In this document: in pieces, positions 32,916 through 55,761 of the stretch
Layout of the letters: every line of letters begins with the position of its first letter
Position numbering within the stretch: the stretch's first letter is position 1
NCBI GenBank assembly: GCA_026874595.1
Contig: CM049311.1
Location: forward strand, 66,904,453-66,968,452
Length of the DNA stretch: 64,000 bases
Direction of reading: 5' to 3'
Origin: Sipunculus nudus
Lineage: Eukaryota; Annelida; Sipuncula; Golfingiida; Sipunculidae
Made by a program: the position numbers and the translations under genes
Notes under the pieces: generated by a model
Seen by the model: the letters and a program-made list of their open reading frames with translations, nothing else
The model's database searches: none
What the model was told of the DNA's origin: nothing

Positions 32916-33720
32916 TGTTACAGGTGCTCTTTTTATTGTGTGGCACAGGCGTAACTCGTGTGGTGACACCCTCGCCAGGCCGTTTGTTACATTCTATGTT
33001 TAATCCGTACTGGCTGAACTCTCGTTTTCAGGCCGGCCTTGGGTTTTCTCGCCTAGGTCGTGGGCCACGTGATAAGCCTGGTGCGCTGTTTTTCTAGACA
33101 ATATCTGAAACGCGTGTAGACTGTGTTGTGCAAGATCTTATAGACTGTTCGAGAAGTGGAAAATTCCCGGCTGGAGGTGTGAAGGTATATAAAGGGGCGG
33201 TTTTTAGAACTATGGGGGCAGAGAGCATAGAAGATTCCAGCGGACGCAGAAGCGTGTGTCAAATTCTAGGACCTTATCCGAAGAATGCGGCAATTATTCA
33301 TTTTCCAAGACTTTCTCCTAGATTTTATGCATTTGGACATCAGTTTACTTTCTGGGTTGTTGCAAGAACTTTCCACTGCACTGTTTTTCTCCGAGAGTTT
33401 ACATATAAAGGACTTATCGTTGCGATGGTGTTGGTATCCAGGTACTGTGCACATACATTATTTTCTCTGTGATCGTATTGACTTGTTGCTGTACCGCTGT
33501 TTTACAGTATAATTGTTTTGATTTAGTGTATTGTATTGTTAGGGTTGTTTTAAGAATAAATTATAGTTATTTGTTAACAAAAAAAAACACTGACTTCTTT
33601 ATTCATTCCCCTAGACATTTCACGCTGCCTAGTGTAACAGAATCTGATTTTTTTTTGTCTCCGTTGCAGAATTTGTGTTCATCACGCATACGTGATCTGT
33701 TTGTATTAGGTTCCGTTAAA
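32916..33720 (+). repeat. LTR1 (outer 5' LTR, 805 bp)
   Basis: Runs from TGTTACAGGTG to TCCGTTAAA. It is the most diverged LTR. It alone keeps a segment of about 75-80 bp (around 33141-33217) with a TATA box, and it keeps AATAAA at 33555-33560. It lacks a GTGGAGATACACA segment present in LTR2-4. Its 3' terminus is mutated from ACA to AAA. Confidence 0.9.
33186..33193 (+). promoter_or_regulatory. TATA box of LTR1
   Basis: TATATAAA followed by GGGGCGG lies at the position matching CTATAAATTAGGGG in the solo LTR. The surrounding segment is deleted in LTR2, LTR3 and LTR4. Confidence 0.6.
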
Positions 33721-33726
33721 TAAAAT

Positions 33727-33742
33727 TGGGGGCTCTCGTCGG
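33727..33742 (+). promoter_or_regulatory. Primer-binding site, copy 1 (tRNA-Pro-like)
   Basis: TGGGGGCTC lies six bases after the LTR and complements a tRNA 3' end GAGCCCCCA, as in tRNA-Pro. The following TCGTCGG only partly fits the animal tRNA-Pro T-stem. The same site lies at 41310 and 48912 in copies 2 and 3. Confidence 0.55.
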
Positions 33743-33867
33743 AATGCTTAATAGTTTTCAAATTTGTTCGGCCTTGATCTGGACACATTGTTTTATCATA
33801 CATTGTTTACAAGATTATATATTGTTTACAGTACATTGTTTACAGGATTTATCTTAGTGTTTTTTTT

Positions 33868-35757
33868 AGCTCAGCTGACTGTAAGTAATCTGAGCTTTAG
33901 CAATCACTGTTTGTCCGTCGTCCGTCCGTCTGTCTAGCTGTCCGTCTGTCCGTCCGTTCGACTGTCTGTCTATCTGTCTGTCCGTCTGTCCGTGCGTTTA
34001 CCAAGCACAAATCGTAACCGCTGGACCTGGAATCTTCTTACTTAATATCCAGAGAGTTTCATGAAAAAATCTCCTTGGAAACCTGGAATTAGGTCTCTGT
34101 TACCCATATTCTTCAAGCTATGGGGCTCTGAAGTACCCCCCAGAATAATGAAAAATTCGATACAAAAGCTCAAGTATCTGACCAACTAATGCATTGATCA
34201 CTATGATTCTGTCCACAAATGTTGATCATGGAATGTTTCATCAGTTTCTGCAGACTGGAGGCGCCACCTGTATTTTTAAGATTTTTTTACGATTTTTCTT
34301 CTCTATTTTTTAGACCTTAAAATATATGGTCATCTGTTAACAGGGCACAAATCTTAACTTTACATTCAGAGAGGTCAATGAAAATTCTCCATGGAAACCG
34401 GGAATAAGTTCTCTGTTACCCATATTCTTCAAGCTATAGGGCTCCGAAGTAACCCCCCCCCCCCCTGAGAAAAAGGAAAAATATGATACAAAAGCCCAAG
34501 TATCTAAACAACTTATGCATCGATCACCATGATTCTTTGGATGGATATTTGTCATGGAATGTTTCATCAGTTTCTGCAGACTGATGGCGCCACCTGTATT
34601 TTATTTAATTTTTACTATTTTTTCTCTGTTTTTGAGACCTTTAAAGATGTGGTCATCTGTTAACAGGGCACAAGTCGTAACGCTGGACCTGGAATCTTCT
34701 GCCAATACATCCAGAGAGGTCCTAAAAAATCTCCATGGAAACCTGGAATTAGGTCTCTGTTACCCATATTCTTCAAGTTATGGGGCTCCAAAGTAACCCC
34801 CAGAATATTGAAAATTTTATACAAAAGCTCAAGTGTCTGAACAACTAATGCATTGATCACCATGATTCTTTACATGGATATTGATCATGGACTGTTTCAT
34901 CAGATTCTGCAGACTGGTGGCGCCACCAATATTTTATTTATTTTTTACTATTTTTTCTCTGTTTTTTAGAATTTTAAAGATGTGGTCATCTGTTCACAGG
35001 GCACAAATCGTAACCGCTGGACCTGGAATCTTCTAACAATACATATAGAGAGGTCCATAAAAAGTCTCCATGGAAACCTGGAATTAGGTCTCTGTTGCCC
35101 ATATTCTTTAAGCTATGGGGCTCCGAAGTACCCCCCCCCCCCCCCCCAATAATGAAAAATTTGATACAAAAGCTCAAGTATCTTAACAACTAATGCATTG
35201 ACCACCATGATTCTTTTCATGGATATTTGTCATGGAATGTTTCATTAGTTTCTGCAGACTGATGGCGCCACCTGTATTTTTTTTTATTTTTTTACTATTT
35301 TTTTCTCTGTTTTTGAGCCAAAGCAGTGCACAAATCATAACCATTGGACCTGGAATCTTCTTACTTTAAATCCAGGAAGGTCCAAGAGAAGTCTCCATGG
35401 AAACATGAAATTAGGTTACCCATATTTTTTAGCTATGGTGCTTCTAAACACCCCTCAGAATGATTGAAACTTTGATACCAAAGTAGGGAACAAATAATAA
35501 CCATTTGGCCTAGAAATTTCTTACTTGACATCCTGAGAGTTCCTCAAAAGTTCTCCCCAGAAAATGAAATTCGGTCACTGTGCCCTATTTTTTGTGAGTT
35601 TTGGGGTATGTTTTAGCACCCCAGAAATAATGCAAAATACATACAAATTGCCAGATTACTCAGGAAAGGCTGGACATTATCTTAATTAGTTGCCTGTGCA
35701 AGGACATATTGTCAACATGTCAGTCGGCTGAGCGTCATGACCCATGGGTCACTTGTT
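33868..35757 (+). mobile_element. Helentron-like insert in the leader, copy 1
   Basis: Same family as 17963-19110. It starts AGCTCAGCTGACTGTAAG with the matching TCTGAGCT arm, then CTGTCCGTC repeats. Core units are marked by GGCGCCACC at about 34260, 34587, 34919 (CCACCAAT variant) and 35264, a period near 335 bp. It ends with CAGTCGGCTGAGC, the perfect palindrome TGACCCATGGGTCA and CTTGTT. It lies between the primer site and the gag ATG (35780), ending only about 22 bases before that ATG. It was present before the array expanded, because all three copies carry it at the same place. Confidence 0.7.
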
Positions 35758-35779: not shown

Positions 35780-37560
35780 ATGGCAGATTTCAAACCTGAG
35801 ACATTTGTTGACGATCCCGACCCTGATCAACTTGAACAGTTGTCAAAAGAACAGTTGTTGCGTTTGGGACAAGACTTAGGGTTAAGTGTGAAAAAAAGCT
35901 TTGAGAAAGCCTGATATCATTGCTAAAATCATGCAAGATCTTATTAGCAAAGGTTTTATTGAAGAGACTGAAGTTGAAACATATGACATATAATGACAGC
36001 TTTGCTATGCAATTAGAATTTAAAAAATTGGAAATGCAACAAGAGCTAGCATTAAAGCAGTTAGAATTAGAAAAACAAAGAGAAGAGAGGGAAGAACATG
36101 AAAGGTTAGAAAGACTAGAAAAAGAAATAGAAAGAGACAGACTAGAAAAAGAAAAAGAAATTGAGTTAAAACGACTGGAATCAGAAAGACATAAACTAGA
36201 ACATAGTCTACGTGCTGCCCCAACTCATAGTTTTGATGTTACTAAACACATTAGACTTGTCCTACCTTTTCAGGAAAAAGAGGTTGATAAATATTTTCTT
36301 TGAGAAGGTAGCTGAAAATTTAAAATGGCCTAAGGAAAATTGGACTATGCTGTTACAAAGTATATTGACTGGCAAGGCCAGAGAAATTTATACAGAGCTG
36401 TCAGTAGAAGCTGCTGCTGACTATGACCTGGTAAAACGGTTAATCCTAAAAGGTTATGAGTTAGTTCCAGAGGCTTAATTACCTCCAGAATTATGAGTTA
36501 GTTCCAGAGGCTTAATTACCTCCAGAAATTCAGAAACTAGGAAAGGCGCAAAAATCAGACCTACGTTGAATTTGCTAGGACAAAAGAGCAGTTGTTTGAT
36601 CGCTGGTGTAGTTCTAAAAATGTAATGAAAGATTATGACAATTTGCGCCAGTTGATTTTGCTTGAAGAATTTAAGCGCTGCATTAACGCAGATGTTAAAA
36701 TTTTTCTCGATGAGAAAAGTCCTGAAACACTTGATATGGCTGCTCAATAAGCTGATGATTATTCATTGACACACAAAATGTCCTTTACTAACATCAAACC
36801 AGTCATTCACAAATAAGAATGTAAAACAGTGTGGTCAAAAAAGTTTACAGCGCAGTCATCCAGTACAAGTAGTCCTGAGAGTTTAGCAAAGCCCATAGCT
36901 ACACCTCAGTCCACGTCCACTGTGTCTAAGTCCAACAAAGACTAGTCATTTTCAAAGAAAATCTGTAATTACTGCAAGAAGGAAGGTCATCTAATATCTG
37001 ACTGCTGGAAACTTGCGAATAGACCAAATAGTAAACCTTCTGGTTTTGTTTCAAAATCTATGCATAGCATAGTACAAGAGCCAGGCTCTTTTCATGTAAA
37101 TAAGGGGTACAACTCGTTTGTTGACTCAAATAAAGAGTTTGATGCTACGGAGGCTGAATCCAAAGAAGAATCCGTAGATATCGGGGTGAAAACCTCAGTT
37201 GATTCCTGCGAGGAATTAAATAAGGCTAGGTCCTTTAAAGACTCCTGCGAGGAGTATTCTCTAAAGGAGGCTAAGTCCTTTTATGACTCTTGCGAGAGTA
37301 TTTCAAATGAGGCCGGGTCCTCTTATGACAAAAAAATTTTGTTTCTGCTGAGGAAAATTCCTCTGTTGACTCCCATGAGGAGTTAGATGTTAAAAAGGAT
37401 GTAGATTCCTTAGACGACTCTGAAACAGAGTTTATAACTGATACTGTCAATGTCATTTCTTTGTTTGATAAGGTTGAGGTAGTAGATTCCTCTCTTGACT
37501 CTGAAATGGAGTTATTTGAGCCATTCATACATGATAGTTTTGTATCACTTTTAAATCATT
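35780..37560 (+). pseudogene. gag: gag, copy 1 (frameshifted)
   Basis: It starts at the ATG of MADFKPETFVDDPDPDQL. A frameshift at the A-run of VKK (about 35890) is followed by a charged coiled coil (about 36010-36200, Glu/Lys/Arg-rich LEKE heptads). Then comes the capsid-like part: FDVTKHIRLVLPFQEKEVDK, KWPKENWTMLLQSILTGKAR, and a SCAN-like segment with DYDNLRQLILLEEFKRCI. A CCHC zinc knuckle (C-x2-C-x4-H-x4-C) sits at 36964-37005. Downstream is an acidic linker with DSCEE repeats. Lesions include a 37-bp out-of-frame tandem duplication (36454-36527), a TAA at 36748-36750 shared with copy 2 only, and a TAG just before the knuckle. Gag would form the particle and bind RNA; this copy cannot make it intact. 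Confidence 0.85.
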
Positions 37561-38260
37561 TTTCAGAGTCTACCCCTATATAGAATTTTGAGGGACACTG
37601 GTTCAGGCCAGACTCTCATGTTAGCAAACACTTTGCCATTTTCTAATAGGTGCTTTACTGGTGCACATGCACTTGTTAATGGTGTGTTTTCAGACAGGCA
37701 CACTTCAGTTCCACTTCACAGTATCCATTTAAAGTCAGATTTGATTTCTGGGAATATTATTGTGGGCATAAGAACTACTTTGCGATTTCAGGGAATTCAG
37801 TTGCTGCTAGGTAATGATGTTGCAGGTGATAAAGTACAGCCTGTACCAATGGTGACAGAAAAGCCGTCACTAGATCAGGACACTGATTCGGAATGTCAGG
37901 AAATTCTTGGTCTATGGCCTAGATCTGTGGCAAAAAAAACACACATGAGGATAATGGTCCAGATGATAACACTCTGGGAGTCACTAGTGACTCGTCTACT
38001 GACTCGCCCGTACAGGATACAGCATTCTCAAGGTCAGAACTTATTGCGGAACAGCATAAGGACCCTGATATTTCATGTTTGTTTCCCAGGGCAGTTTCTA
38101 AAGATGAGCTGTCACAGAACCCAGTTTGTTTCTATGTCAAAAATGGAGTGCTTATGCGAAAATGGCGACCTCCTGATTTATGCGCTGATGATGAGTGGGC
38201 CATCAAACATCAAATAGTAATGCCCAAAACCTTTCGCAGTGAAGTTCTAAGCATGGCACA
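37561..38260 (+). pseudogene. pol: Protease and integrase N-terminal extension, copy 1
   Basis: The aspartic protease active site reads LRDTGSGQTLML (D-T-G-S at about 37600), and the second landmark is QLLLGNDVAGD, the usual hydrophobic-hydrophobic-G motif near the C-terminus. A one-base insertion before RILRDTG (CCTATATAGAA instead of CCTATTAGAA in copy 3) puts a stop upstream. After the protease, an A8 run (about 37931) shifts frame into the integrase lead-in, with SKDELSQNPVCFYVKNGVLM and QIVMPKTFRSEVLSMAHEAP. Confidence 0.85.
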
Positions 38261-39373
38261 TGAGGCTCCTTTGGCCATTTAGGTATAAATAAAACTTATC
38301 AAAAAGTTAGTACACACTTCTATTGGCCTAACCTCAGGAAAGATGTTGTACAATATTGTAAATCATGCCATACATGCCAGATGGTAGGCAAGCCCAATCA
38401 GAATCCTCCTAAGGCCCCACTTAGGCCTATTCCTGCTTTCGAGGAACCATTCAGTAGAATTATTGTTGATTGTGTTGGACCACTGCCCAATCAAAATCTG
38501 GACATGAATATTTGCTGACAAATATGTGCGCATCTACCAGGTTCGCTGAGGCAATACCATTGCGCAAAATTAATGCCAAAGGTATTGTCAAAGCTCTGAC
38601 CAATTTTTTTACAACTTTGGGATTACCAAAATCCGTCTAGTCTGACCAAGGGTCTAATTTTATGTCTGGCTTATTCCAACAAGTTATGCCTGAGCTAGGT
38701 ATAAAACAGTACATCTCTTCGCCATACCATCCTGATAGTCAGGGCGCCCTCGAGCGTTTTCACCAGACATTAAAAAACATGATCAGAACATATTGCTATG
38801 ACACACAGAATGACTGGGATTAAGGAATCCACCTATTGCTGTTTGCTTTCAGAGAATCCTTTCAAGAGTCCTTGGGTTTCAGTCCCTTTGAATTAGTTTT
38901 TTGGACATTCCGTTCGAGGTCCATTGAAACTGCCTAAAGAAAAACTCTTGTGTGAAAATCCCGATTCTCTTAGCTTACTGCAGTATGTCTCAGACTTTCG
39001 CACTAAACTACACAATGCTTGTGAGATAACAAAGTCAAATCTAAGATCTGCACAAAGTAAAATGAAAACAAAGTATGACAAACATACTGTAAGAAGAACG
39101 TTTGAGCCTGGTGAAAAGGTCCTTGCCTTACTTCCCATACCTGGCAGACCTCTGCAAGATAGGTATTTTGGCCCTTACATTGTTGACAAGAAAGTCAGTG
39201 ATTTGCATTACATACTGTTGACTCCAGATAGACGAAAGAAGAAACAACTGTGCCATGTTAACATGTTGAAACCATATTATGACAGAAATAGCACATCAGA
39301 TGTTGTACAAAATGTTACTGCTGTTAATTGTGTAAAAATTGACTCTGACCCAGTTAAAGTAGATACTGATTGA
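38261..39373 (+). pseudogene. pol: Integrase, copy 1 (broken)
   Basis: The N-terminal zinc-binding domain shows GHLGINKTY, then CKSCHTCQMVGK (HHCC). The catalytic core has Asp in FSRIIVDCVGPLP (38468-38470), Asp in SDQGSNFMSG (38644-38646) and Glu in GALERFHQTLK (38752-38754); the last two are separated by exactly 35 residues (D-35-E). The C-terminal part includes LPIPGRPLQDRYFGPYIVD and CHVNMLKPYYD. Lesions: frameshifts near 38280 and 38500, TAG at 38638-38640, TAA at 38821-38823, and an extra T in GTTTTTTGG near 38900. The region lies upstream of RT, which is unusual for gypsy-type elements. It would have inserted the cDNA into the genome. Confidence 0.9.
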
Positions 39374-39383
39374 TGTAGACTGA

Positions 39384-40431
39384 TTGATGAAGTGTGATGT
39401 AGACATTCAGTTTGGTACAGTACCATTAAAAAACTCAGACGTGCTTAAAAACCTGGATGCCAAACTGTCACACCTTACCCAACAACAACAACAAGACCTA
39501 AATAACCTGCTGCGGAATTATGAATATTTGTTTAGTGACATTCCAACGCGAACTAACATGTTGTGCCCTAGAGCTGACGTCGATGTTGGCAAGGCAAGCG
39601 CAGTCAAGCAACATCCATATAGACTGAATCCAGAAAAGCAAAAGTATCTACAGGATGAGATTCAATAATTGCTGGACAATGATTTTATTGAACCTAGTAA
39701 CAGTAACTGGAAGTTAACGTATGTGCACAGATTATCGAAAACTGAACTCTGTCACAAAGACTGACACGTTCCCGATTCCGAGGATCGATGATTGTATTGA
39801 TAGAGGTGGTAGCTACAGATATGTCTCCAAGTTTGACTTGCTAAAAGGATTATGGCAGGTTCCGCTGACAGATCGAGCGAAATAAGTGTCCGAATTTGTG
39901 ACGCCGCAAGGACTGTGCCAGTATAAAGTTATGCCGTTTGGCATGAAGAACTCGCCAGCCACGTTCCAGTTGTTGCTGCTGTAGCTGAACCTTTGACTAA
40001 TTTGTTAAAGAAGAAAATTTTTGAAAGCAATTCTGGAAAGTTCACCAGTTTTAGCAGCTCCAGACTTTCCTGTACCTTTTAAGTTAGCTGTAGATGCTAG
40101 TAATACTGCTGCTGGTGCTGTGTTGTTACAAGAAGGCAATGATTGCATAGATTATCCAATTTGTTATTTCTCAAGAAAGTTAAATGCAAACCAGAAAATC
40201 TACTCCACTATTGAAAAAGAATGTTTGGCTTTGATTTTTGCGTTGCAACATTTTGAAGTTTATGTTATGAGATTTAGTGATCACAATCCCCTCACGTTTA
40301 TGAACAAGTTGAAGTGTAAAAATCAAAGATTGTTGAGATGGAGTTTGTTCTTACAGGATTACGATCTTGATATCATACACATTAAAGGGAAAGACAATGT
40401 ACTTGCTGATTGCTTATCGAGATGTTTATGA
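39384..40431 (+). pseudogene. pol: Reverse transcriptase (deleted) and RNase H, copy 1
   Basis: RT begins with SHLTQQQQQDLNNLLRNYEY and KQHPYRLNPEKQKYLQ. After a short deletion following EPSNSNW it continues with CTDYRKLNSVTKTDTFPIP, VSKFDLLKGLWQVPL (first catalytic Asp) and VMPFGMKNSPATFQ. The sequence then jumps directly to VAEPLTNLLKKK, so the Y-x-DD box and the RT thumb are gone, an estimated 0.4 kb. RNase H (40021-40431) retains FKLAVDASNTAAGAVLLQE, YSTIEKECLALIFALQ, SDHNPLTFM and IKGKDNVLADCLSR. Further stops occur at 39666-39668 and after the VPLTDRAK motif. Enzymatically dead. Confidence 0.9.
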
Positions 40432-40546: not shown

Positions 40547-40563
40547 TCTTACAGGAATGGGAG

Positions 40564-41303
40564 TGTTACAGGTGCTCTTTTTATTGGGTGGCACGGGCGT
40601 AACTCGTGTGGTGACACCCTCGCCGGGCCGTTTGTTACATTCTATGGTTAATCCGTACTGGTTGAACTCTCGTTGTCATGCCGGCCTTTGGGTTTTCTCG
40701 CCTGGTCGTGGGTCACGTGATGAGCCTGGTATGTGGAGATACACAGCGCTGTTTTTCTAGAGAATTCATGGAACGCGTGTAGACTGTGTTGTGCAAGATC
40801 TTAGAGCAGAGAGCATAGAAGTTTCCGGCGGACGCAGAAGCGTGTGTCAGATTCTAGGACCTTATCCGACGAATGCGGCAATTATACATTTTCAAAGACT
40901 TTCTCCTGGATTTTGTGCATTTGGACTTCAGTTTACTTTCTGGGTTGTTGCAAGAACTTTCCACTGGACTGTTAATCTTCGAGAGTTTACATATAAAGGA
41001 CTTATCGTTGTGATGGTGTTGGTAACCAGGTACTGTGCACATACATTATTTTCTCTGTGATTGTATTGACTTGTCGCTATACCGCTGTTTTCTGTATAAT
41101 TGTATTGATTAAGTGTATTGTATTGTAAGGGTTGTTTTAAGAATAGATTATAGTTATTTGTTAACAAAAATCCACTGACTTCTTTATTCATTCCCCTAGA
41201 CATTTCACGCTGCCAACTGTTACAGAATATGATTTTTTTGTCTCCGTTGCAGAATTTGTGTTCATCACGCATACGTGATCTGTTTGTATTAGGTTCCGTT
41301 ACA
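40564..41303 (+). repeat. LTR2 (internal, 740 bp)
   Basis: TGTTACAGG to TCCGTTACA. Nearly identical to LTR3. It lacks the TATA-containing segment of LTR1, and AATAAA is changed to AATAGA (41142-41147). Its body resembles LTR4, while its last bases (TTCCGTTA) resemble LTR1, as expected for a recombinant LTR. Confidence 0.9.
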
Positions 41304-41309
41304 TAAAAT

Positions 41310-41325
41310 TGGGGGCTCTCGTCGG
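41310..41325 (+). promoter_or_regulatory. Primer-binding site, copy 2
   Basis: TGGGGGCTCTCGTCGG at the same offset from LTR2 as in copy 1. Confidence 0.55.
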
Positions 41326-41448
41326 AATGCTTAATAGTTTTCAAATTTGTTAGGCCTTGATCTGGACACATTGTTTTATCATACATTGTTTACAAGATTA
41401 TATATTGTTTACAGTACATTGTTTACAGGATTTATCTTAGTGGTTTTT

Positions 41449-41544
41449 TTAGCTCAGCTGACTGTAAGTAATCTGAGCTTTAGCAATCACTGTTTGTCCG
41501 TCGTCCGTCCGTCTGTCTAGCTGTCCGTCTGTCCGTCCGTTCGA

Positions 41545-41576
<32 letters not shown>

Positions 41577-43361
41577 CCGTGCGTTTACCAAGCACAAATC
41601 GTAACCGCTGGACCTGGAATCTTCTTACTTAATATCCAGAGAGTTTCATGAAAAAATCTCCTTGGAAACCTGGAATTAGGTCTCTGTTACCCATATTCTT
41701 CAAGCTATGGGGCTCTGAAGTACCCCCCAGAATAATGAAAAATTCGATACAAAAGCTCAAGTATCTGACCAACTAATGCATTGATCACTATGATTCTGTC
41801 CACAAATGTTGATCATGGAATGTTTCATCAGTTTCTGCAGACTGGAGGCGCCACCTGTATTTTTAAGATTTTTTTACGATTTTTCTTCTCTATTTTTGAG
41901 ACCTTAAAATATATGGTCATCTGTTAACAGGGCACAAATCTTAACCGCTTGACCTGGAATCTTCTAACTTTACATTCAGAGAGGTCAATGAAAATTCTCC
42001 ATGGAAACCGGGAATAAGTTCTCTGTTACCCATATTCTTCAAGCTATAGGGCTCCGAAGTAACCCCCCCCCCCCTGAGAAAAAGGAAAAATATGATACAA
42101 AAGCTCAAGTATCTAAACAACTTATGCATCGATCACCATGATTCTTTGGATGGATATTTGTCATGGAATGTTTCATCAGTTTCTGCAGACTGATGGCGCC
42201 ACCTGTATTTTATTTAATTTTTACTATTTTTTCTCTGTTTTTGAGACCTTTAAAGATGTGGTCATCTGTTAACAGGGCACAAGTCGTAACGCTGGACCTG
42301 GAATCTTCTGCCAATACATCCAGAGAGGTCCTAAAAAATCTCCATGGAAACCTGGAATTAGGTCTCTGTTACCCATATTCTTCAAGCTATGGGGCTCCAA
42401 AGTAACCCCCAGAATATTGAAAAATTTTATACAAAAGCTCAAGTGTCTGAACAACTAATGCATTGATCACCATGATTCTTTACATGGATATTGATCATGG
42501 ACTGTTTCATCAGATTCTGCAGACTGGTGGCGCCACCAATATTTTATTTATTTTTTACTATTTTTTCTCTGTTTTTTAGAACTTTAAAGATGTGGTCATC
42601 TGTTAACATGGCACAAATCGTAACCGCTGGACCTGGAATCTTCTAACAATACATATGGAGAGTTCCATAAAAAGTCTCCATGGAAACCTGGAATTAGGTC
42701 TCTGTTGCCCATATTCTTTAAGCTACGGGGCTCCGAAGTACCCCCCCCCCCCCCCAATAATGAAAAATTTGATACAAAAGCTCAAGTATCTTAACAACTA
42801 ATGCATTGACCACCATGATTCTTTTCATGGATATTTGTCATGGAATGTTTCATTAGTTTCTGCAGACTGATGGCGCCACCTGTATTTTTTTTTTTTTACT
42901 ATTTTTTTCTCTGTTTTTGAGCCAAAGCAGTGCACAAATCATAACCATTGGACCTGGAATCTTCTTACTTTAAATCCAGGAAGGTCCAAGAGAAGTCTCC
43001 ATGGAAACATGAAATTAGGTTACCCATATTTTTTAGCTATGGTGCTTCTAAACACCCCTCAGAATGATTGAAACTTTGATACCAAAGTAGGGCACAAATA
43101 ATAACCATTTGGCCTAGAAATTTCTTACTTGACATCCTGAGAGTTCCTCAAAAGTTCTCCCCAGAAAATGAAATTCGGTCACTGTGCCCTATTTTTTGTG
43201 AGTTTTGGGGTATGTTTTAGCACCCCAGAAATAATGCAAAATACATACAAGTTGCCAGATTACTCAGGAAAGGCTGGACATTATCTTAATTAGTTGCCTG
43301 TGCAAGGACATATTGTCAACATGTCAGTCGGCTGAGCGTCATGACCCATGGGTCACTTGTT
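41449..43361 (+). mobile_element. Helentron-like insert in the leader, copy 2
   Basis: Same position and layout as the copy 1 insert. Differences are small indels in CTGT repeats, poly-C and poly-T runs, and one segment (41941-41965) that copy 1 has shortened. Confidence 0.7.
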
Positions 43362-43383
43362 GTTATTGTTTTGACATCTTAAC

Positions 43384-45180
43384 ATGGCAGATTTCAAACC
43401 TGAGACATTTGTTGACGATCCCGACCCTGATCAACTTGAACAGTTGTCAAAAGAACAGTTGTTGCGTTTGGGACAAGACTTAGGGCTAAGTGTGAAAAAA
43501 AGCTTTGAGAAAGCCTGATATCATTGCTAAAATCATGCAAGATCTTATTAGCAAAGGTTTTATTGAAGAGACTGAAGTTGAAACATATGACATATAATGA
43601 CAGCTTTGCTATGCAATTAGAATTTAAAAAATTGGAAATGCAACAAGAGCTAGCATTAAAGCAGTTAGAATTAGAAAAACAAAGAGAAGAGAGGGAAGAA
43701 CATGAAAGGTTAGAAAGACTAGAAAAAGAAATAGAAAGAGACAGACTAGAAAAAGAAAAAGAAATTGAGTTAAAACGACTGGAATCAGAAAGACATAAAC
43801 TAGAACATAGTCTACGTGCTGCCCCAACTCATAGTTTTGATGTTACTAAACACATTAGACTTGTCCTACCTTTTCAGGAAAAAGAGGTTGATAAATATTT
43901 TCTTTGAGAAGGTAGCTGAAAATTTAAAATGGCCTAAGGAAAATTGGACTATGCTGTTACAAAGTATATTGACTGGCAAGGCCAGAGAAATTTATACAGA
44001 GCTGTCAGTAGAAGCTGCTGCTGACTATGACCTGGTAAAACGGTTAATCCTAAAAGGTTATGAGTTAGTTCCAGAGGCTTAATTACCTCCAGAATTATGA
44101 GTTAGTTCCAGAGGCTTAATTACCTCCAGAAATTCAGAAACTAGGAAAGGCGCAAAAATCAGACCTACGTTGAATTTGCTAGGACAAAAGAGCAGTTGTT
44201 TGATCGCTGGTGTAGTTCTAAAAATGTAATGAAAGATTATGACAATTTGCGCCAGTTGATTTTGCTTGAAGAATTTAAGCGCTGCATTAACGCAGATGTT
44301 AAAATTTTTCTCGATGAGAAAAGTCCTGAAACACTTGATATGGCTGCTCAATAAGCTGATGATTATTCATTGACACACAAAATGTCCTTTACTAACATCA
44401 AACCAGTCATTCACAAATAAGAATGTAAAACAGTGTGGTCAAAAAAGTTTACAGCGCAGTCATCCAGTACAAGTAGTCCTGAGAGTTTAGCAAAGCCCAT
44501 AGCTACACCTCAGTCCACGTCCACTGTGTCTAAGTCCAACAAAGACTAGTCATTTTCAAAGAAAATCTGTAATTACTGCAAGAAGGAAGGTCATCTAATA
44601 TCTGACTGCTGGAAACTTGCGAATAGACCAAATAATAAACCTTCTGGTTTTGTTTCAAAATCTATGCATAGCATAGTACAAGAGCCAGGCTCTTTTCATG
44701 TAAATAAGGGGTACAACTCGTTTGTTGACTCAAATAAAGAGTTTGATGCTACGGAGGCTGAATCCAAAGAAGAATCCGTAGATATCGGGGTGAAAACCTC
44801 AGTTGATTCCTGCGAGGAATTAAATAAGGCTAGGTCCTTTAAAGACTCCTGCGAGGAGTATTCTCTAAAGGAGGCTAAGTCCTTTTATGACTCTTGCGAG
44901 AGTATTTCAAATGAGGCCGGGTCCTCTTATGACAATAAAATTTTGTTTCTGCTGAGGAAAATTCCTCTGTTGACTCCCATGAGGAGTTAGATGTTAAAAA
45001 GGATGTAGATTCCTTAGACGACTCTGAAACAGAGTTTATAACTGATACTGTCAATGTCATTTCTTTGTTTGATAAGGTTGAGGTAGTAGATTCCTCTCTT
45101 GACTCTGAAATGGAGTTATTTGAGCCATTCATACATGATAGTTTTGTATCACTTTTAAATCATTTTTCAGAGTCTACCCC
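43384..45180 (+). pseudogene. gag: gag, copy 2 (frameshifted)
   Basis: Same architecture as copy 1: MADFKPETF start, coiled coil, capsid/SCAN-like part, CCHC knuckle at 44568-44609 and acidic DSCEE linker. It shares the 37-bp duplication (44058-44131) and the TAA in the AAQ-LADDY region (44352-44354) with copy 1. Only scattered single-base differences separate it from copy 1, such as AATAATAAACC for AATAGTAAACC after the knuckle. Confidence 0.85.
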
Positions 45181-45864
45181 TATATAGAATTTTGAGGGAC
45201 ACTGGTTCAGGCCCGACTCTCATGTTAGCAAACACTTTGCCATTTTCTAATAGGTGCTTTACTGGTGCACATGCACTTGTTAATGGTGTGTTTTCAGACA
45301 GGCACACTTCAGTTCCACTTCACAGTATCCATTTAAAGTCAGATTTGATTTCTGGGAATATTATTGTGGGCATAAGAACTACTTTGCCCTTTCAGGGAAT
45401 TCAGTTGCTGCTAGGTAATGATGTTGCAGGTGATAAAGTACAGCCTGTACCAATGGTGACAGAAAAGCCGTCACTAGATCAGGACACTGATTCGGAATGT
45501 CAGGAAATTCTTGGTCTATGGCCTAGATCTGTGGCAAAAAAAACACACATGAGGATAATGGTCCAGATGATAACACTCTGGGAGTCACTAGTGACTCGTC
45601 TACTGACTCGCCCGTACAGGATACAGCATTCTCAAGGTCAGAACTTATTGCGGAACAGCATAAGGACCCTGATATTTCATGTTTGTTTCCCAGGGCAGTT
45701 TCTAAAGATGAGCTGTCACAGAACCCAGTTTGTTTCTATGTCAAAAATGGAGTGCTTATGCGAAAATGGCGACCTCCTGATTTATGCGCTGATGATGAGT
45801 GGGCCATCAAACATCAAATAGTAATGCCCAAAACCTTTCGCAGTGAAGTTCTAAGCATGGCACA
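45181..45864 (+). pseudogene. pol: Protease and integrase lead-in, copy 2
   Basis: DTGSG active-site motif and LLLGNDVAGD are present. It has the same one-base insertion upstream as copy 1. The Gln after DTGSG is changed to Pro (CAG to CCG), a private difference. The A8 frameshift follows as in the other copies. Confidence 0.85.
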
Positions 45865-46977
45865 TGAGGCTCCTTTGGCCATTTAGGTATAAATAAAACT
45901 TATCAAAAAGTTAGTACACACTTCTATTGGCCTAACCTCAGGAAAGATGTTGTACAATATTGTAAATCATGCCATACATGCCAGATGGTAGGCAAGCCCA
46001 ATCAGAATCCTCCTAAGGCCCCACTTAGGCCTATTCCTGCTTTCGAGGAACCATTCAGTAGAATTATTGTTGATTGTGTTGGACCACTGCCCAATCAAAA
46101 TCTGGACATGAATATTTGCTGACAAATATGTGCGCATCTACCAGGTTCCCTGAGGCAATACCATTGCGCAAAATTAATGCCAAAGGTATTGTCAAAGCTC
46201 TGACCAATTTTTTTACAACTTTGGGATTACCAAAATCCGTCTAGTCTGACCAAGGGTCTAATTTTATGTCTGGCTTATTCCAACAAGTTATGCCTGAGCT
46301 AGGTATAAAACAGTACATCTCTTCGCCATACCATCCTGATAGTCAGGGCGCCCTCGAGCGTTTTCACCAGACATTAAAAAACATGATCAGAACATATTGC
46401 TATGACACACAGAATGACTGGGATTAAGGAATCCACCTATTGCTGTTTGCTTTCAGAGAATCCTTTCAAGAGTCCTTGGGTTTCAGTCCCTTTGAATTAG
46501 TTTTTTGGACATTCCGTTCGAGGTCCATTGAAACTGCCTAAAGAAAAACTCTTGTGTGAAAATCCCGATTCTCTTAGCTTACTGCAGTATGTCTCAGACT
46601 TTCGCACTAAACTACACAATGCTTGTGAGATAACAAAGTCAAATCTAAGATCTGCACAAAGTAAAATGAAAACAAAGTATGACAAACATACTGTAAGAAG
46701 AACGTTTGAGCCTGGTGAAAAGGTCCTTGCCTTACTTCCCATACCTGGCAGACCTCTGCAAGATAGGTATTTTGGCCCTTACATTGTTGACAAGAAAGTC
46801 AGTGATTTGCATTACATACTGTTGACTCCAGATAGACGAAAGAAGAAACAACTGTGCCATGTTAACATGTTGAAACCATATTATGACAGAAATAGCACAT
46901 CAGATGTTGTACAAAATGTTACTGCTGTTAATTGTGTAAAAATTGACTCTGACCCAGTTAAAGTAGATACTGATTGA
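45865..46977 (+). pseudogene. pol: Integrase, copy 2 (broken)
   Basis: HHCC, D-D-35-E and the C-terminal CHVNMLKPYYD segment are all recognisable. It carries the same stops, and the same extra T before the C-terminal domain, as copy 1. Confidence 0.9.
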
Positions 46978-46987
46978 TGTAGACTGA

Positions 46988-48035
46988 TTGATGAAGTGTG
47001 ATGTAGACATTCAGTTTGGTACAGTACCATTAAAAAAATCAGACGTGCTTAAAAACCTGGATGCCAAACTGTCACACCTTACCCAACAACAACAACAAGA
47101 CCTAAATAACCTGCTGCGGAATTATGAATATTTGTTTAGTGACATTCCAACGCGAACTAACATGTTGTGCCCTAGAGCTGACGTCGATGTTGGCAAGGCA
47201 AGCGCAGTCAAGCAACATCCATATAGACTGAATCCAGAAAAGCAAAAGTATCTACAGGATGAGATTCAATAATTGCTGGACAATGATTTTATTGAACCTA
47301 GTAACAGTAACTGGAAGTTAACGTATGTGCACAGATTATCGAAAACTGAACTCTGTCACAAAGACTGACACGTTCCCGATTCCGAGGATCGATGATTGTA
47401 TTGATAGAGGTGGTAGCTACAGATATGTCTCCAAGTTTGACTTGCTAAAAGGATTATGGCAGGTTCCGCTGACAGATCGAGCGAAATAAGTGTCCGAATT
47501 TGTGACGCCGCAAGGACTGTGCCAGTATAAAGTTATGCCGTTTGGCATGAAGAACTCGCCAGCCACGTTCCAGTTGTTGCTGCTGTAGCTGAACCTTTGA
47601 CTAATTTGTTAAAGAAGAAAATTTTTGAAAGCAATTCTGGAAAGTTCACCAGTTTTAGCAGCTCCAGACTTTCCTGTACCTTTTAAGTTAGCTGTAGATG
47701 CTAGTAATACTGCTGCTGGTGCTGTGTTGTTACAAGAAGGCAATGATTGCATAGATTATCCAATTTGTTATTTCTCAAGAAAGTTAAATGCAAACCAGAA
47801 AATCTACTCCACTATTGAAAAAGAATGTTTGGCTTTGATTTTTGCGTTGCAACATTTTGAAGTTTATGTTATGAGATTTAGTGATCACAATCCCCTCACG
47901 TTTATGAACAAGTTGAAGTGTAAAAATCAAAGATTGTTGAGATGGAGTTTGTTCTTACAGGATTACGATCTTGATATCATACACATTAAAGGGAAAGACA
48001 ATGTACTTGCTGATTGCTTATCGAGATGTTTATGA
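46988..48035 (+). pseudogene. pol: Reverse transcriptase (deleted) and RNase H, copy 2
   Basis: Identical layout to copy 1, including both RT deletions (no Y-x-DD box) and an open RNase H segment (47625-48035). One visible change is VPLKKSDV instead of VPLKNSDV near the start. Confidence 0.9.
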
Positions 48036-48117
48036 AATGTTGTGAACAAGATGTTTATGTGATGTTGTAGATAAGATGATTTTTGAAATGTTGTAAAGAC
48101 TTAGTGATTGTGATCAC

Positions 48118-48150
48118 AAAAAGAAAGTTTTCCGTGAAAACTTTCTTTTT
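48118..48150 (+). other. Hairpin before LTR3
   Basis: Same 14-base stem and five-base loop as at 40514-40546, unchanged. Confidence 0.75.
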
Positions 48151-48167
48151 TCTTACAGGAATGGGAG

Positions 48168-48905
48168 TGTTACAGGTGCTCTTTTTATTGGGTGGCACGG
48201 GCGTAACTCGTGTGGTGACACCCTCGCCGGGCCGTTTGTTACATTCTATGGTTAATCCGTACTGGTTGAACTCTCGTTGTCATGCCGGCCTTTGGGTTTT
48301 CTCGCCTGGTCGTGGGTCACGTGATGAGCCTGGTGTGTGGAGATACACAGCGCTGTTTTTCTAGAGAATTCATGGAACGCGTGTAGACTGTGTTGTGCAA
48401 GATCTTAGAGCAGAGAGCATAGAAGTTTCCGGCGGACGCAGAAGCGTGTGTCAGATTCTAGGACCTTATCCGACGAATGCGGCAATTATACATTTTCAAA
48501 GACTTTCTCCTGGATTTTGTGCATTTGGACTTCAGTTTACTTTCTGGGTTGTTGCAAGAACTTTCCACTGGACTGTTAATCTTCGAGTTTACATATAAAG
48601 GACTTATCGTTGTGATGGTGTTGGTAACCAGGTACTGTGCACATACATTATTTTCTCTGTGATTGTATTGACTTGTCGCTATACCGCTGTTTTCTGTATA
48701 ATTGTATTGATTAAGTGTATTGTATTGTAAGGGTTGTTTTAAGAATAGATTATAGTTATTTGTTAACAAAAATCCACTGACTTCTTTATTCATTCCCCTA
48801 GACATTTCACGCTGCCAACTGTTACAGAATATGATTTTTTTGTCTCCGTTGCAGAATTTGTGTTCATCACGCATACGTGATCTGTTTGTATTAGGTTCCG
48901 TTACA
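48168..48905 (+). repeat. LTR3 (internal, 738 bp)
   Basis: TGTTACAGG to TCCGTTACA. It differs from LTR2 by a two-base deletion in CTTCGAGAG (near 48585) and very few substitutions. The TATA segment is absent and AATAGA replaces AATAAA. Confidence 0.9.
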
Positions 48906-48911
48906 TAAAAT

Positions 48912-48927
48912 TGGGGGCTCTCGTCGG
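48912..48927 (+). promoter_or_regulatory. Primer-binding site, copy 3
   Basis: TGGGGGCTCTCGTCGG at the same offset from LTR3. Confidence 0.55.
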
Positions 48928-49050
48928 AATGCTTAATAGTTTTCAAATTTGTTAGGCCTTGATCTGGACACATTGTTTTATCATACATTGTTTACAAGAT
49001 TATATATTGTTTACAGTACATTGTTTACAGGATTTATCTTAGTGGTTTTT

Positions 49051-50956
49051 TTAGCTCAGATGACTGTAAGTAATCTGAGCTTTAGCAATCACTGTTTGTC
49101 CGTCGTCCGTCCGTCTGTCTAGCTGTCCGTCTGTCCGTCCGTTCGACTGTCTGTCTGTCTGTCTGTCCGTCTGTCCGTGCGTTTACCAAGCACAAATCGT
49201 AACCGCTGGACCTGGAATCTTCTTACTTAATATCCAGAGAGTTTCATGAAAAAATCTCCTTGGAAACCTGGAATTAGGTCTCTGTTACCCATATTCTTCA
49301 AGCTATGGGGCTCTGAAGTACCCCCCAGAATAATGAAAAATTCGATACAAAAGCTCAAGTATCTGACCAACTAATGCATTGATCACTATGATTCTGTCCA
49401 CAAATGTTGATCATGGAATGTTTCATCAGTTTCTGCAGACTGGAGGCGCCACCTGTATTTTTAAGATTTTTTTACGATTTTTCTTCTCTATTTTTGAGAC
49501 CTTAAAATATATGGTCATCTGTTAACAGGGCACAAATCTTAACCGCTTGACCTGGAATCTTCTAACTTTACATTCAGAGAGGTCAATGAAAATTCTCCAT
49601 GGAAACCGGGAATAAGTTCTCTGTTACCCATATTCTTCAAGCTATAGGGCTCCGAAGTAACCCCCCCCCCCCTGAGAAAAAGGACAAATATGATACAAAA
49701 GCTCAAGTATCTAAACAACTTATGCATCGATCACCATGATTCTTTGGATGGATATTTGTCATGGAATGTTTCATCAGTTTCTGCAGACTGATGGCGCCAC
49801 CTGTATTTTATTTAATTTTTACTATTTTTTCTCTGTTTTTGAGACCTTTAAAGATGTGGTCATCTGTTAACAGGGCACAAGTCGTAACGCTGGACCTGGA
49901 ATCTTCTGCCAATACATCCAGAGAGGTCCTAAAAAATCTCCATGGAAACCTGGAATTAGGTCTCTGTTACCCATATTCTTCAAGCTATGGGGCTCCAAAG
50001 TAACCCCCAGAATATTGAAAAATTTTATACAAAAGCTCAAGTGTCTGAACAACTAATGCATTGATCACCATGATTCTTTACATGGATATTGATCATGGAC
50101 TGTTTCATCAGATTCTGCAGACTGGTGGCGCCACCAATATTTTATTTATTTTTTACTATTTTTTCTCTGTTTTTTAGAACTTTAAAGATGTGGTCATCTG
50201 TTAACATGGCACAAATCGTAACCGCTGGACCTGGAATCTTCTAACAATACATATGGAGAGGTCCATAAAAATTCTCCATGGAAACCTGGAATTAGGTCTC
50301 TGTTGCCCATATTCTTTAAGCTACGGGGCTCCGAAGTACCCTCCCCCCCAATAATGAAAAATTTGATACAAAAGCTCAAGTATCTTAACAACTAATGCAT
50401 TGACCACCATGATTCTTTTCATGGATATTTGTCATGGAATGTTTCATTAGTTTCTGCAGACTGATGGCGCCACCTGTATTTTTTTTTTTTTTACTATTTT
50501 TTTCTCTGTTTTTGAGCCAAAGCAGTGCACAAATCATAACCATTGGACCTGGAATCTTCTTACTTTAAATCCAGGAAGGTCCAAGAGAAGTCTCCATGGA
50601 AACATGAAATTAGGTTACCCATATTTTTTAGCTATGGTGCTTCTAAACACCCCTCAGAATGATTGAAACTTTGATACCAAAGTAGGGCACAAATAATAAC
50701 CATTTGGCCTAGAAATTTCTTACTTGACATCCTGAGAGTTCCTCAAAAGTTCTCCCCAGAAAATGAAATTCGGTCACTGTGCCCTATTTTTTGTGAGTTT
50801 TGGGGTATGTTTTAGCACCCCAGAAATAATGCAAAATACATACAAATTGCCAGATTACTCAGGAAAGGCTGGACATTATCTTAATTAGTTGCCTGTGCAA
50901 GGACATATTGTCAACATGTCAGTCGGCTGAGCGTCATGACCCATGGGTCACTTGTT
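49051..50956 (+). mobile_element. Helentron-like insert in the leader, copy 3
   Basis: Same insert and position as copies 1 and 2. The 5' hairpin arm reads AGCTCAGATGACTG here, which pairs slightly better with the opposite arm. The long poly-C run near 50340 is shorter and interrupted (CCCTCCCCCC). Confidence 0.7.
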
Positions 50957-50978
50957 GTTATTGTTTTGACATCTTAAC

Positions 50979-52780
50979 ATGGCAGATTTCAAACCTGAGA
51001 CATTTGTTGACGATCCCGACCCTGATCAACTTGAACAGTTGTCAAAAGAACAGTTGTGGCGTTTGGGACAAGACTTAGGGCTAAGTGTGAAAAAAAGCTT
51101 TGAGAAAGCCTGATATCATTGCTAAAATCATGCAAGATCTTATTAGCAAAGGTTTTATTGAAGAGACTGAAGTTGAAACATATGGCATATAATGACAGCT
51201 TTGCTATGCAATTAGAATTTAAAAAATTGGAAATGCAACAAGAGCTAGCATTAAAGCAGTTAGAATTAGAAAAACAAAGAGAAGAGAGGGAAGAACATGA
51301 AAGGTTAGAAAGACTAGAAAAAGAAATAGAAAGAGACAGACTAGAAAAAGAAAAAGAAATTGAGTTAAAACGACTGGAATCAGAAAGACATAAACTAGAA
51401 CATAGTCTACGTGCTGCCCCAACTCATAGTTTTGATGTTACTAAACACATTAGACTTGTCCTACCTTTTCAGGAAAAAGAGGTTGATAAATATTTTCTTT
51501 GAGAAGGTAGCTGAAAATTTAAAATGGCCTAAGGAAAATTGGACTATGCTGTTACAAAGTATATTGACTGGCAAGGCCAGAGAAATTTATACAGAGCTGT
51601 CAGTAGAAGCTGCTGCTGACTATGACCTGGTAAAACGGTTAATCCTAAAAGGTTATGAGTTAGTTCCAGAGGCTTAATTACCTCCAGAATTATGAGTTAG
51701 TTCCAGAGGCTTAATTACCTCCAGAAATTCAGAAACTAGGAAAAGCGCAAAAATCAGACCTACGTTGAATTTGCTAGGACAAAAGAGCAGTTGTTTGATC
51801 GCTGGTGTAGTTCTAAAAATGTAATGAAAGATTATGACAATTTGCGCCAGTTGATTTTGCTTGAAGAATTTAAGCGCTGCATTAACGCAGATGTTAAAAT
51901 TTTTCTCGATGAGAAAAGTCCTGAAACACTTGATATGGCTGCTCAATTAGCTGATGATTATTCATTGACACACAAAATGTCCTTTACTAACATCAAACCA
52001 GTCATTCACAAATAAGAATGTAAAACAGTGTGGTCAAAAAAGTTTACAGCGCAGTCACCCAGTACAAGTAGTCCTGAGAGTTTAGCAAAGCCCATAGCTA
52101 CACCTCAGTCCACGTCCACTGTGTCTAAGTCCAACAAAGACTAGTCATTTTCAAAGAAAATCTGTAATTACTGCAAGAAGGAAGGTCATCTAATATCTGA
52201 CTGCTGGAAACTTGCGAATAGACCAAATAGTAAACCTTCTGGTTTTGTTTCAAAATCTATGCAAAGCATAGTACAAGAGCCAGGCTCTTTTCATGTAAAT
52301 AAGGGGTACAACTCGTTTGTTGACTCAAATAAAGAGTTTGATGCTACGGAGGCTGAATCCAAAGAAGAATCCGTAGATATCGGGGTGAAAACCTCAGTTG
52401 ATTCCTGCGAGGAATTAAATAAGGCTAGGTCCTTTAAAGACTCCTGCGAGGAGTATTCTCTAAAGGAGGCTAAGTCCTTTTATGACTCTTGCGAGAGTAT
52501 TTCAAATGAGGCCGGGTCCTCTTATGACAAAAAAATTTTGTTTCTGCTGAGGAAAATTCCTCTGTTGACTCCCATGAGGAGTTAGATGTTAAAAAGGATG
52601 TAGATTCCTTAGACGACTCTGAAACAGAGTTTATAACTGATACTGTCAATGTCATTTCTTTGTTTGATAAGGTTGAGGTAGTAGATTCCTCTCTTGACTC
52701 TGAAATGGAGTTATTTGAGCCATTCATACATGATAGTTTTGTATCACTTTTAAATCATTTTTCAGAGTCTACCCCTATTA
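50979..52780 (+). pseudogene. gag: gag, copy 3 (fewest stops)
   Basis: Same domains as copies 1 and 2, with the knuckle at 52163-52204 and the 37-bp duplication at 51653-51726. It lacks the TAA found in copies 1 and 2: here AAQLADDYSLTHKM is open (51941-51980), giving an open segment 51791-52015. A private L-to-W change occurs early (SKEQLWRLG). Still frameshifted at the A-run and within the capsid. Confidence 0.85.
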
Positions 52781-53463
52781 GAATTTTGAGGGACACTGGT
52801 TCAGGCCAGACTCTCATGTTAGCAAACACTTTGCCATTTTCTAATAGGTGCTTTACTGGTGCACATGCACTTGTTAATGGTGTGTTTTCAGACAGGCACA
52901 CTTCAGTTCCACTTCACAGTATCCATTTAAAGTCAGATTTGATTTCTGGGAATATTATTGTGGGCATAAGAACTACTTTACCCTTTCAGGGAATTCAGTT
53001 GCTGCTAGGTAATGATGTTGCAGGTGATAAAGTACAGCCTGTACCAATGGTGACAGAAAAGCCGTCACTAGATCAGGACACTGATTCGGAATGTCAGGAA
53101 ATTCTTGGTCTATGGCCTAGATCTGTGGCAAAAAAAACACACATGAGGATAATGGTCCAGATGATAACACTCTGGGAGTCACTAGTGACTCGTCTACTGA
53201 CTCGCCCGTACAGGATACAGCATTCTCAAGGTCAGAACTTATTGCGGAACAGCATAAGGACCCTGATATTTCATGTTTGTTTCCCAGGGCAGTTTCTAAA
53301 GATGAGCTGTCACAGAACCCAGTTTGTTTCTATGTCAAAAATGGAGTGCTTATGCGAAAATGGCGACCTCCTGATTTATGCGCTGATGATGAGTGGGCCA
53401 TCAAACATCAAATAGTAATGCCCAAAACCTTTCGCAGTGAAGTTCTAAGCATGGCACATGAGG
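52660..53463 (+). pseudogene. pol: Protease and integrase lead-in, copy 3 (protease frame open)
   Basis: The protease frame is continuous from the acidic linker (52660) through TPIRILRDTGSGQTLML to LLLGNDVAGD, because the one-base insertion of copies 1 and 2 is absent. The A8 frameshift after the protease is shared by all copies, so the integrase is still out of frame. Confidence 0.85.
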
Positions 53464-54570
53464 CTCCTTTGGCCATTTAGGTATAAATAAAACTTATCAA
53501 AAAGTTAGTACACACTTCTATTGGCCTAACCTCAGGAAAGATGTTGTACAATATTGTAAATCATGCCATACATGCCAGATGGTAGGCAAGCCCAATCAGA
53601 ATCCTCCTAAGGCCCCACTTAGGCCTATTCCTGCTTTCGAGGAACCATTCAGTAGAATTATTGTTGATTGTGTTGGACCACAGCCCAATCAAAATCTGGA
53701 CATGAATATTTGCTGACAAATATGTGCGCATCTACCAGGTTCCCTGAGGCAATACCATTGCGCAAAATTAATGCCAAAGGTATTGTCAAAGCTCTGACCA
53801 ATTTTTTTACAACTTTGGGATTACCAAAATCCTTCTAGTCTGACCAAGGGTCTAATTTTATGTCTGGCTTATTCCAACAAGTTATGCTTGAGCTAGGTAT
53901 AAAACAGTACATCTCTTCGCCATACCATCCTGATAGTCAGGGCGCCCTCGAGCGTTTTCACCAGACATTAAAAAACATGATCAGAACATATTGCTATGAC
54001 ACACAGAATGACTGGGATTAAGGAATCCACCTATTGCTGTTTGCTTTCAGAGAATCCTTTCAAGAGTCCTTGGGTTTCAGTCCCTTTGAATTAGTTTTTG
54101 GACATTCCGTTCGAGGTCCATTGAAACTGCCTAAAGAAAAACTCTTGTGTGAAAATCCCGATTCTCTTAGCTTACTGCAGTATGTCTCAGACTTTCGCAC
54201 TAAACTACACAATGCTTGTGAGATTACAAAGTCAAATCTAAAATCTGCACAAAGTAAAATGAAAACAAAGTATGACAAACATACTGTAAGAAGAACGTTT
54301 GAGCCTGGTGAAAAGGTCCTTGCCTTACTTCCCATCCCTGGCAGACCTCTGCAAGATAGGTATTTTGGCCCTTACATTGTTGACAAGAACGTCAGTGATT
54401 TGCATTACATACTGTTGACTCCAGATAGACGTAAGAAGAAACAACTGTGCCATGTTAACATGTTGAAACCATATTATGACAGAAATAGCACATCAGATGT
54501 TGTACAAAATGTTACTGCTGTTAATTGTGTAAAAATTGACTCTGACCCAGTTAAAGTAGATACTGATTGA
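53464..54570 (+). pseudogene. pol: Integrase, copy 3 (C-terminal half open)
   Basis: HHCC and D-D-35-E are recognisable with the shared TAG before SDQGSNF and TAA after NDWD. The extra T is absent, so one frame runs from FRESFQESLGFSPFELVFGH through the C-terminal domain to the stop (54034-54570). Private changes include VMLELGI for VMPELGI. Confidence 0.9.
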
Positions 54571-54580
54571 TGTAGACTGA

Positions 54581-55629: not shown

Positions 55630-55711
55630 AATGTTGTGAACAAGATGTTTATGTGATGTTGTGGATAAGATGATTTTTGAAATGTTGTAAGGACTTAGTG
55701 ATTGTGATCAC

Positions 55712-55744
55712 AAAAAGAAAGTTTTCCGTGAAAACTTTCTTTTT
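55712..55744 (+). other. Hairpin before LTR4
   Basis: Same stem-loop as in copies 1 and 2, unchanged. Confidence 0.75.
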
Positions 55745-55761
55745 TCTTACAGGAATGGGAG

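Follow-up and report, generated by a model that had tools for sequence, protein, structure and literature searches.

Does an integrase (IN) that lies ahead of the reverse transcriptase (RT) in a gypsy-type retrotransposon reflect an accident at one locus, or the regular build of a family? This question is raised by three element copies that stand in tandem in a stretch of 64,000 nucleotides of the Sipunculus nudus genome (contig CM049311.1, positions 66,904,453 to 66,968,452 of the forward strand), hereafter called the window. The evidence set out below makes it very probable that the element is a decayed Gmr1-like LTR retrotransposon, with Ty3/gypsy-type enzymes in the order protease (PR), IN, RT, and RNase H (RH) behind a SCAN-type gag, that probably once formed a single gag-pol frame, was inserted once and later tandemly duplicated, and has a domain order that is ancestral for its family.

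Domain order of the element

The sequence-only reading had placed PR, IN, RT, and RNase H in this order in all three copies. In copy 1, motifs and alignment locate the order on the forward strand from the PR motif DTGS at 37594 to the end of RNase H at 40422, with a SCAN-type capsid upstream of PR and enzymes that are all gypsy-type downstream. The features of copy 1 are as follows.

35780 to 37005, + strand: remains of gag, with its start MADFKPETF at 35780, a SCAN-type capsid part at 36541-36747, and a CCHC knuckle at 36964-37005 (Pfam, motifs, alignment)
37407 to 37920, + strand: protease region with DTGSG (alignment to P0122, motif)
37594 to 37608, + strand: DTGSG, the PR motif (motif search)
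37983 to 39370, + strand: integrase with linker, HHCC, D-D35-E, and a C-terminal part with CHVNMLKPYY (Pfam, motifs, alignment)
38273 to 38380, + strand: HHCC, the zinc-binding motif of IN (motif search)
38465 to 38488, + strand: first D of IN, within VDCVGPLP (motif search)
38644 and 38752, + strand: codons of the second D and of the E of IN (motif search)
39251 to 39280, + strand: CHVNMLKPYY in the C-terminal part of IN (motif search)
39399 to 39969, + strand: N-terminal part of RT; the YxDD part expected next is deleted (Pfam, motifs, alignment)
within 39718 to 39747, + strand: DYRKLN of RT (motif search)
39832 to 39867, + strand: FDLLKGLWQVPL of RT (motif search)
40009 to 40431, + strand: RNase H, the C-terminal end of pol, given as 40018-40422 in the motif listing (Pfam, alignment)

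Searching for 22 motifs recovered 21 in all three copies, and VDCVGPLP matched exactly in copies 1 and 2 only; 35 residues separate the second D and the E of IN. Pfam matches in the window comprised Integrase_H2C2 (1.1e-18), Integrase_p58_C (9.6e-09), and RT_RNaseH (1.3e-28), as well as rve in one frame-broken fragment (2.9e-04) and RVT_1 in two (3.1e-04 and 6.8e-06), the fragment matches all falling below the curated cut-offs. The weak scores for the IN core and RT arise because each fragment is cut by frame breaks; in P0122, an intact relative of 1606 aa with which the window stretch is collinear, RT and rve are above the Pfam cut-offs. PR had no Pfam match in the window and was called from its DTGS motif and one block of 46% identity to P0122. 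When four relatives were used as tblastn queries, their blocks followed the same order along each window copy.

Motifs, Pfam matches, and collinearity with P0122 thus confirm that the PR-IN-RT-RH order in the window is real. All three copies show it as had been claimed, but they derive from a single duplicated insertion and amount to one observation. The claim of an RT was borne out for the N-terminal part, which is present with its motifs, but not for a stretch of about 110 residues including YxDD, which is missing.

The earlier description of Ty3/gypsy-like domains in Ty1/copia order holds for the domains, the order, the relatives, and the trees alike. The PR-IN-RT-RH order is the one trait that would fit a true Ty1/copia element, a reading that carries next to no probability here: its RT, RNase H, and IN belong to the gypsy type and not to that of copia; in Pfam, P0122 and the window pieces hit RVT_1, Integrase_H2C2, rve, and RT_RNaseH, with copia-type RT models absent from the matches; and P0122 and Ty3 share 36% identity in RT-RH. 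Nor does the element show the RT-RH-IN order of a conventional Ty3/gypsy element. Yeast Ty3 (PDB 7q5b) has homologous RT-RH and IN blocks, but its RT-RH precedes IN, and P0122 aligns with it in two blocks of swapped order.

Decay and tandem duplication

The window element is a dead, decayed copy. Its reading frames are interrupted by shifts and stops, and the equivalent of P0122 residues 1325-1435 (~110 residues, including YxDD at P0122 position 1340) is absent from all three copies, the deletion lying between the end of the RT block at 39969 and RNase H. A search of the RT-RH stretch of every window copy in all three forward frames yielded no [YF]xDD; YxDD occurs somewhere in 115 of 120 long relatives among the matches listed. 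The distance between the starts of the second RT match and the RNase H match is 123-244 nt in the window copies versus 424-652 nt in 21 of 25 dispersed copies of the same genome (the 21 in which both matches were found), which indicates that the deletion belongs to the window insertion. Two frame breaks that copies 1 and 2 share, one in PR and one in IN, do not occur in copy 3, which has a private break in RNase H.

The array is laid out as LTR1-internal-LTR2-internal-LTR3-internal-LTR4, and its parts outside the coding region of copy 1 are listed here; the LTR comparison took LTR1-3 one base shorter than the ends given.

32916 to 33720, + strand: LTR1, the divergent left LTR, TGTTACAGG...TTAAA (6.2% from LTR2-4)
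33727 to 33745, + strand: putative primer binding site, TGGGGGCTC... (sequence)
33913 to 35483, + strand: long leader before gag, a TGTC-rich simple repeat followed by an array of ~333-bp units (sequence comparison)
40553 to 40563, + strand: purine-rich AGGAATGGGAG directly before LTR2, a putative polypurine tract (sequence)
40564 to 41303, + strand: LTR2, common to copies 1 and 2 (LTR comparison)
41304 to 48167, + strand: internal region of copy 2, order and deletion as in copy 1 (motifs, alignment)
48168 to 48905, + strand: LTR3, common to copies 2 and 3 (LTR comparison)
48906 to 55761, + strand: internal region of copy 3, order and deletion as in copy 1, fewer PR and IN frame breaks and one of its own in RNase H
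55762 to 56500, + strand: LTR4, which closes the array on the right, ...GTAACA with ATATAT after it (LTR comparison)

The primer binding site at 33727 to 33745 is presumably tRNA-Pro-like. At 33869-35483, the leader repeats a pattern of TTAGCTCAGCTGAC...TGTCCGTC before the ~333-bp units, and I take it to resemble a repeat that is common in mollusc genomes. Repeats of the leader family also occur outside the array, at window positions 17960-18960, and at 13571-13828 lies a further LTR fragment that matches the element's LTR at its 3' end with 83% identity.

LTR1 differs by 6.2% from LTR2-4, while LTR2-4 differ from each other by 0.1-0.8% and the internal regions by 0.3-0.6%; each pair of internal units is separated by 22-40 substitutions and 6-8 indels. 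The divergence of LTR1, together with the near-identical internal regions and the common deletion, points to one decayed insertion that was tandemly duplicated, and the simplest history for the three copies would be one insertion, decay, and then two tandem duplications. A single insertion would first have lost the YxDD part of RT and acquired frame breaks, and the unit of internal region plus right LTR would later have been duplicated twice, most likely through unequal exchange between LTRs. LTR2 and LTR3 match LTR4 at nearly all sites at which LTR1 and LTR4 differ, but agree with LTR1 at two positions close to the 3' end; this mosaic may hint at a trace of such an exchange, or the two sites may be private changes of LTR4. 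ATATAT stands on both outer sides of the array (before LTR1 and after LTR4) in an AT-rich flank, and might be a target duplication, though not a proven one.

Near-identical units of 7.6 kb are hard to assemble, and the array is known from the assembly alone, so that the threefold structure might be an assembly artefact with no real tandem duplication behind it. This appears unlikely given the substitutions and indels by which each pair of internal units differs, and given more tandem or partly duplicated stretches of the same family elsewhere in the assembly. Such duplicated copies were seen at C15:45.89-45.92 Mb (L029, L030), C14:11.72 Mb (L031), and C16:27.42 Mb (L032), and their presence at these loci suggests that tandem growth recurs.

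An intact element would be expected to behave as an ordinary LTR retrotransposon, with tRNA-primed reverse transcription in a capsid and subsequent integration by IN. Cleavage by PR would presumably free IN and RT-RH regardless of their order.

Domain order in the same genome and in database relatives

Three co-located copies that share one order could, taken alone, stem from one local event, in which the IN of a conventional gypsy element was moved ahead of RT at this place only. The 1.43-Gb genome was searched with the C-terminal piece of IN, which gave 4026 candidate places, the best 150 of which were scored. The loci examined were the three window copies, the five next best, and 20 drawn every seventh place along the 150 scored. 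IN preceded RT and the blocks were collinear at all 28 loci examined (3 in the window and 25 dispersed), and none of them had the PR-RT-RH-IN order that the sequence-only reading had proposed to look for; the dispersed copies, drawn from the best 150 of 4026 places, represent the nearer kin. As a control, a search with the RT-RH part of Ty3 returned same-genome loci of which the best 30 of 94 scored were all RT-RH-IN, many of these 30 being near-identical (8 distinct RNase H rows). In the same genome, other gypsy elements have homologous blocks, but carry RT-RH ahead of IN.

Among long database relatives (120 listed of 1089), 113 had IN, RT, and RH in this order, no IN was found in four and no RT in three, and the reverse order occurred in none. 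A search led by IN (120 listed of 418) yielded 49 relatives with RT or RH downstream, 71 in which neither was found, the longest having 584 residues beyond its last match, and none with RT or RH upstream. Short relatives of 77-245 aa (120 listed of 1461) contained the RNase H end motif in 104 cases, and 98 of these 104 end within five residues of the motif. IN also lies before RT or RNase H in proteins named as Paramuricea (P0156, P0157, P0175), Glandiceps (P0188), and Holothuria (P0299, P0312, P0314), so that a cnidarian (P0156), a hemichordate (P0188), and an echinoderm (P0314), as named, are IN-first; the RNase H of proteins under these three group names is 59-67% identical to that of the window.

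Within the loci and proteins examined, inside and outside this genome, the IN-first order is shared across the family and ancestral to it. With IN first in 25 of 25 sampled dispersed copies and, within single predicted proteins, in 113 of the 120 listed long relatives, a purely local rearrangement can be dismissed for practical purposes.

No relatives were found in a viral contig collection queried with RH, the IN HHCC piece, an RH alignment, and a Ty3-led alignment, or in a genome contig collection scanned with the RH alignment. Several relatives (P0028, P0174, P0202, P0229, P0237, P0261) come from records of Campylobacter, of symbiont MAGs, and of a ciliate; most likely these are animal DNA in microbial assemblies.

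Phylogenetic placement

Trees were built from RNase H and IN pieces. The first two trees, with 59 rows each chosen from 129 (RH) and 157 (IN C-terminal piece) matches, both paired the window with P0121 (SH-aLRT 97 for RH and 99 for IN). A second RH tree of 40 rows added conventional elements and same-genome copies, 11 of the 25 dispersed copies having a long enough RNase H match. Here, IN-first and IN-last rows were split by a branch with 100/99 support that was present in 200 of 200 bootstrap trees, although the bootstrap was not fully settled. The conventional outgroups came from one genome plus Ty3, gave 8 distinct RH rows, and entered the tree without clade names.

The IN tree that included Ty3 (76 columns) showed no clean split and needed two changes of order: Ty3 sat on a branch of 2.09 among the IN-first rows, and P0239 fell beside the IN-last rows (61/87). 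Without Ty3, and with a slightly shorter minimum match and 9 rather than 8 conventional rows, the IN tree separated IN-first from IN-last at 100/99; P0174 was in neither of these two IN trees. The phylogeny suggested at the outset supports the placement through the RH and IN pieces of the window, which fall with IN-first relatives and apart from conventional elements, but the IN tree with Ty3 is not clean.

Gag and the Gmr1-like elements

Gmr1-like elements were first described in deuterostomes. The window element bears their distinguishing traits, namely an IN that precedes RT, three enzymes (RT, RNase H, IN) of gypsy type, a SCAN-like C-terminal part of the capsid, and RH and IN pieces that group with IN-first relatives. 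The SCAN-type gag that had been mentioned at the outset was substantiated by a PF02023 match in the window (29.5 bits, 6.3e-07) above the cut-off of 27 bits, and by PF02023 in the precomputed Pfam annotation of all 37 relatives of at least 1500 aa among the matches listed; the CCHC knuckle remained below the Pfam cut-off (0.0039). Among listed relatives with animal names, SCAN is annotated in the Holothuria proteins. It is not annotated in the named Paramuricea and Glandiceps relatives, which are proteins without most of gag; P0147, whose neighbour in the RH tree is a named cnidarian protein, does carry SCAN.

SCAN has been described as homologous to or derived from Gmr1-like gag (PMC3424704, PMC4592553), it occurs in more than half of frog Gmr elements (PMC4131045), and a zebrafish study reports elements in which SCAN takes the position of gag, though not under the name Gmr1 (PMC8672886). 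The Gmr1 clade is known to have IN upstream of RT (PMC6238403). Gmr1 of Atlantic cod and the Gmr elements of fish and frogs hence resemble the window element in domain order, gypsy-type domains, and SCAN-type gag. Fish Gmr gag-pol proteins of 1506-1634 aa (PMC11117352) are similar in size to the 37 listed relatives of at least 1500 aa, the longest of which has 1703 aa. The window element differs from Gmr in LTRs of 738-805 bp versus 337-518 bp in fish (PMC11117352), a repeat-filled leader of ~2 kb, its broken frames, and its lophotrochozoan host. Troyka (PMC12440569) was rejected as a match because its domains follow the gypsy order and its ends are CG..CG.

The deuterostome origin of the description is right as history, but a restriction to deuterostomes is outdated. 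Four crustacean elements related to Gmr1 (GyRex4 and others) were called the first in protostomes (PMC3587641) and the annelid family LGF3 was placed within Gmr1 (PMC8220671), both by the authors' own trees and likened to the window element by description; their publication makes the extension of the group smaller than the sequence-only reading had implied. Another study lists Gmr1 among clades found in several phyla, but its own annelid analysis recovered no Gmr1 (PMC8556966). A mollusc survey distinguishes 21 gypsy clades with no row for Gmr1 (PMC6238403), and the clade may thus have been missed or otherwise named there. No description of Gmr1-like elements in molluscs under that name was found in the mostly open-access literature searched.

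IN before RT is the normal order of the Gmr1-like family, and the element joins an already known group. This membership is supported by order, SCAN-type gag, and the literature, with Gmr1 itself compared by description and the trees built from IN-first relatives and conventional elements. The alternative would be a gypsy lineage outside the Gmr1 clade that came by its IN-first order independently. I regard such a lineage as very improbable, since named cnidarian, hemichordate, and echinoderm proteins with IN before RT or RH are 59-67% identical in RNase H, the IN-first rows form one side of the 100/99 branch, and published work ties both the order (PMC6238403) and the SCAN-type gag (PMC3424704, PMC4131045) to Gmr1-like elements.

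Gmr1-like membership adds a lophotrochozoan set (4026 candidate places, best 150 scored) to a clade first seen as a deuterostome oddity; with a tree of broad sampling, the domain swap could be dated, as could the gag from which vertebrates obtained the SCAN domain. Tentatively, and at slightly below even confidence, the IN-first order and the SCAN-type gag might have had a single origin before cnidarians and bilaterians diverged, and have remained linked ever since. The gag ancestor of the SCAN domain would then belong to an animal-wide lineage that is still abundant in lophotrochozoans and, in Sipunculus nudus, has also grown by tandem LTR-mediated duplication of dead copies. The probability of this single-origin reading is lowered by the cnidarian and hemichordate proteins with names, in which SCAN was not seen.

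Other features of the window and genome

Pfam revealed no host genes in eight other frames of the window, and tRNA and Rfam scans of the window gave no matches. On the reverse strand, positions 15253-15990 hold decayed open frames with one weak RVT_1 match (0.0045) that resemble a non-LTR retrotransposon. For the affinity of the host, three of four exons taken from a muscle-myosin locus of the genome were aligned with PDB sequences. The squid and scallop entries (3i5f, 1dfk, 1b7t, 1kk7, 1qvi, 2ec6, 2os8) came first or close to the top and scored above the insect entries. Their margin over vertebrate-type myosin was 194.1 versus 193.0 bits in one exon, 83.0 versus 76.8 in another, in which the scallop entries at 76.2-76.4 were not in the lead, and 86.3 versus 75.9 in the last. 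As no annelid or brachiopod entry was recognised among the best 60 rows per exon, the comparison suggests a mollusc or some other lophotrochozoan. The mollusc haemocyanin domain PF14830 was found neither in this genome nor in the control genomes, which makes its absence uninformative. Muscle myosin genes with alternative exons occur in fly and scallop. Elsewhere in the same genome, C2:44849337-44852248 contains four short matches to myosin exons of one head part, which fit a muscle myosin gene with alternative exons, as expected.
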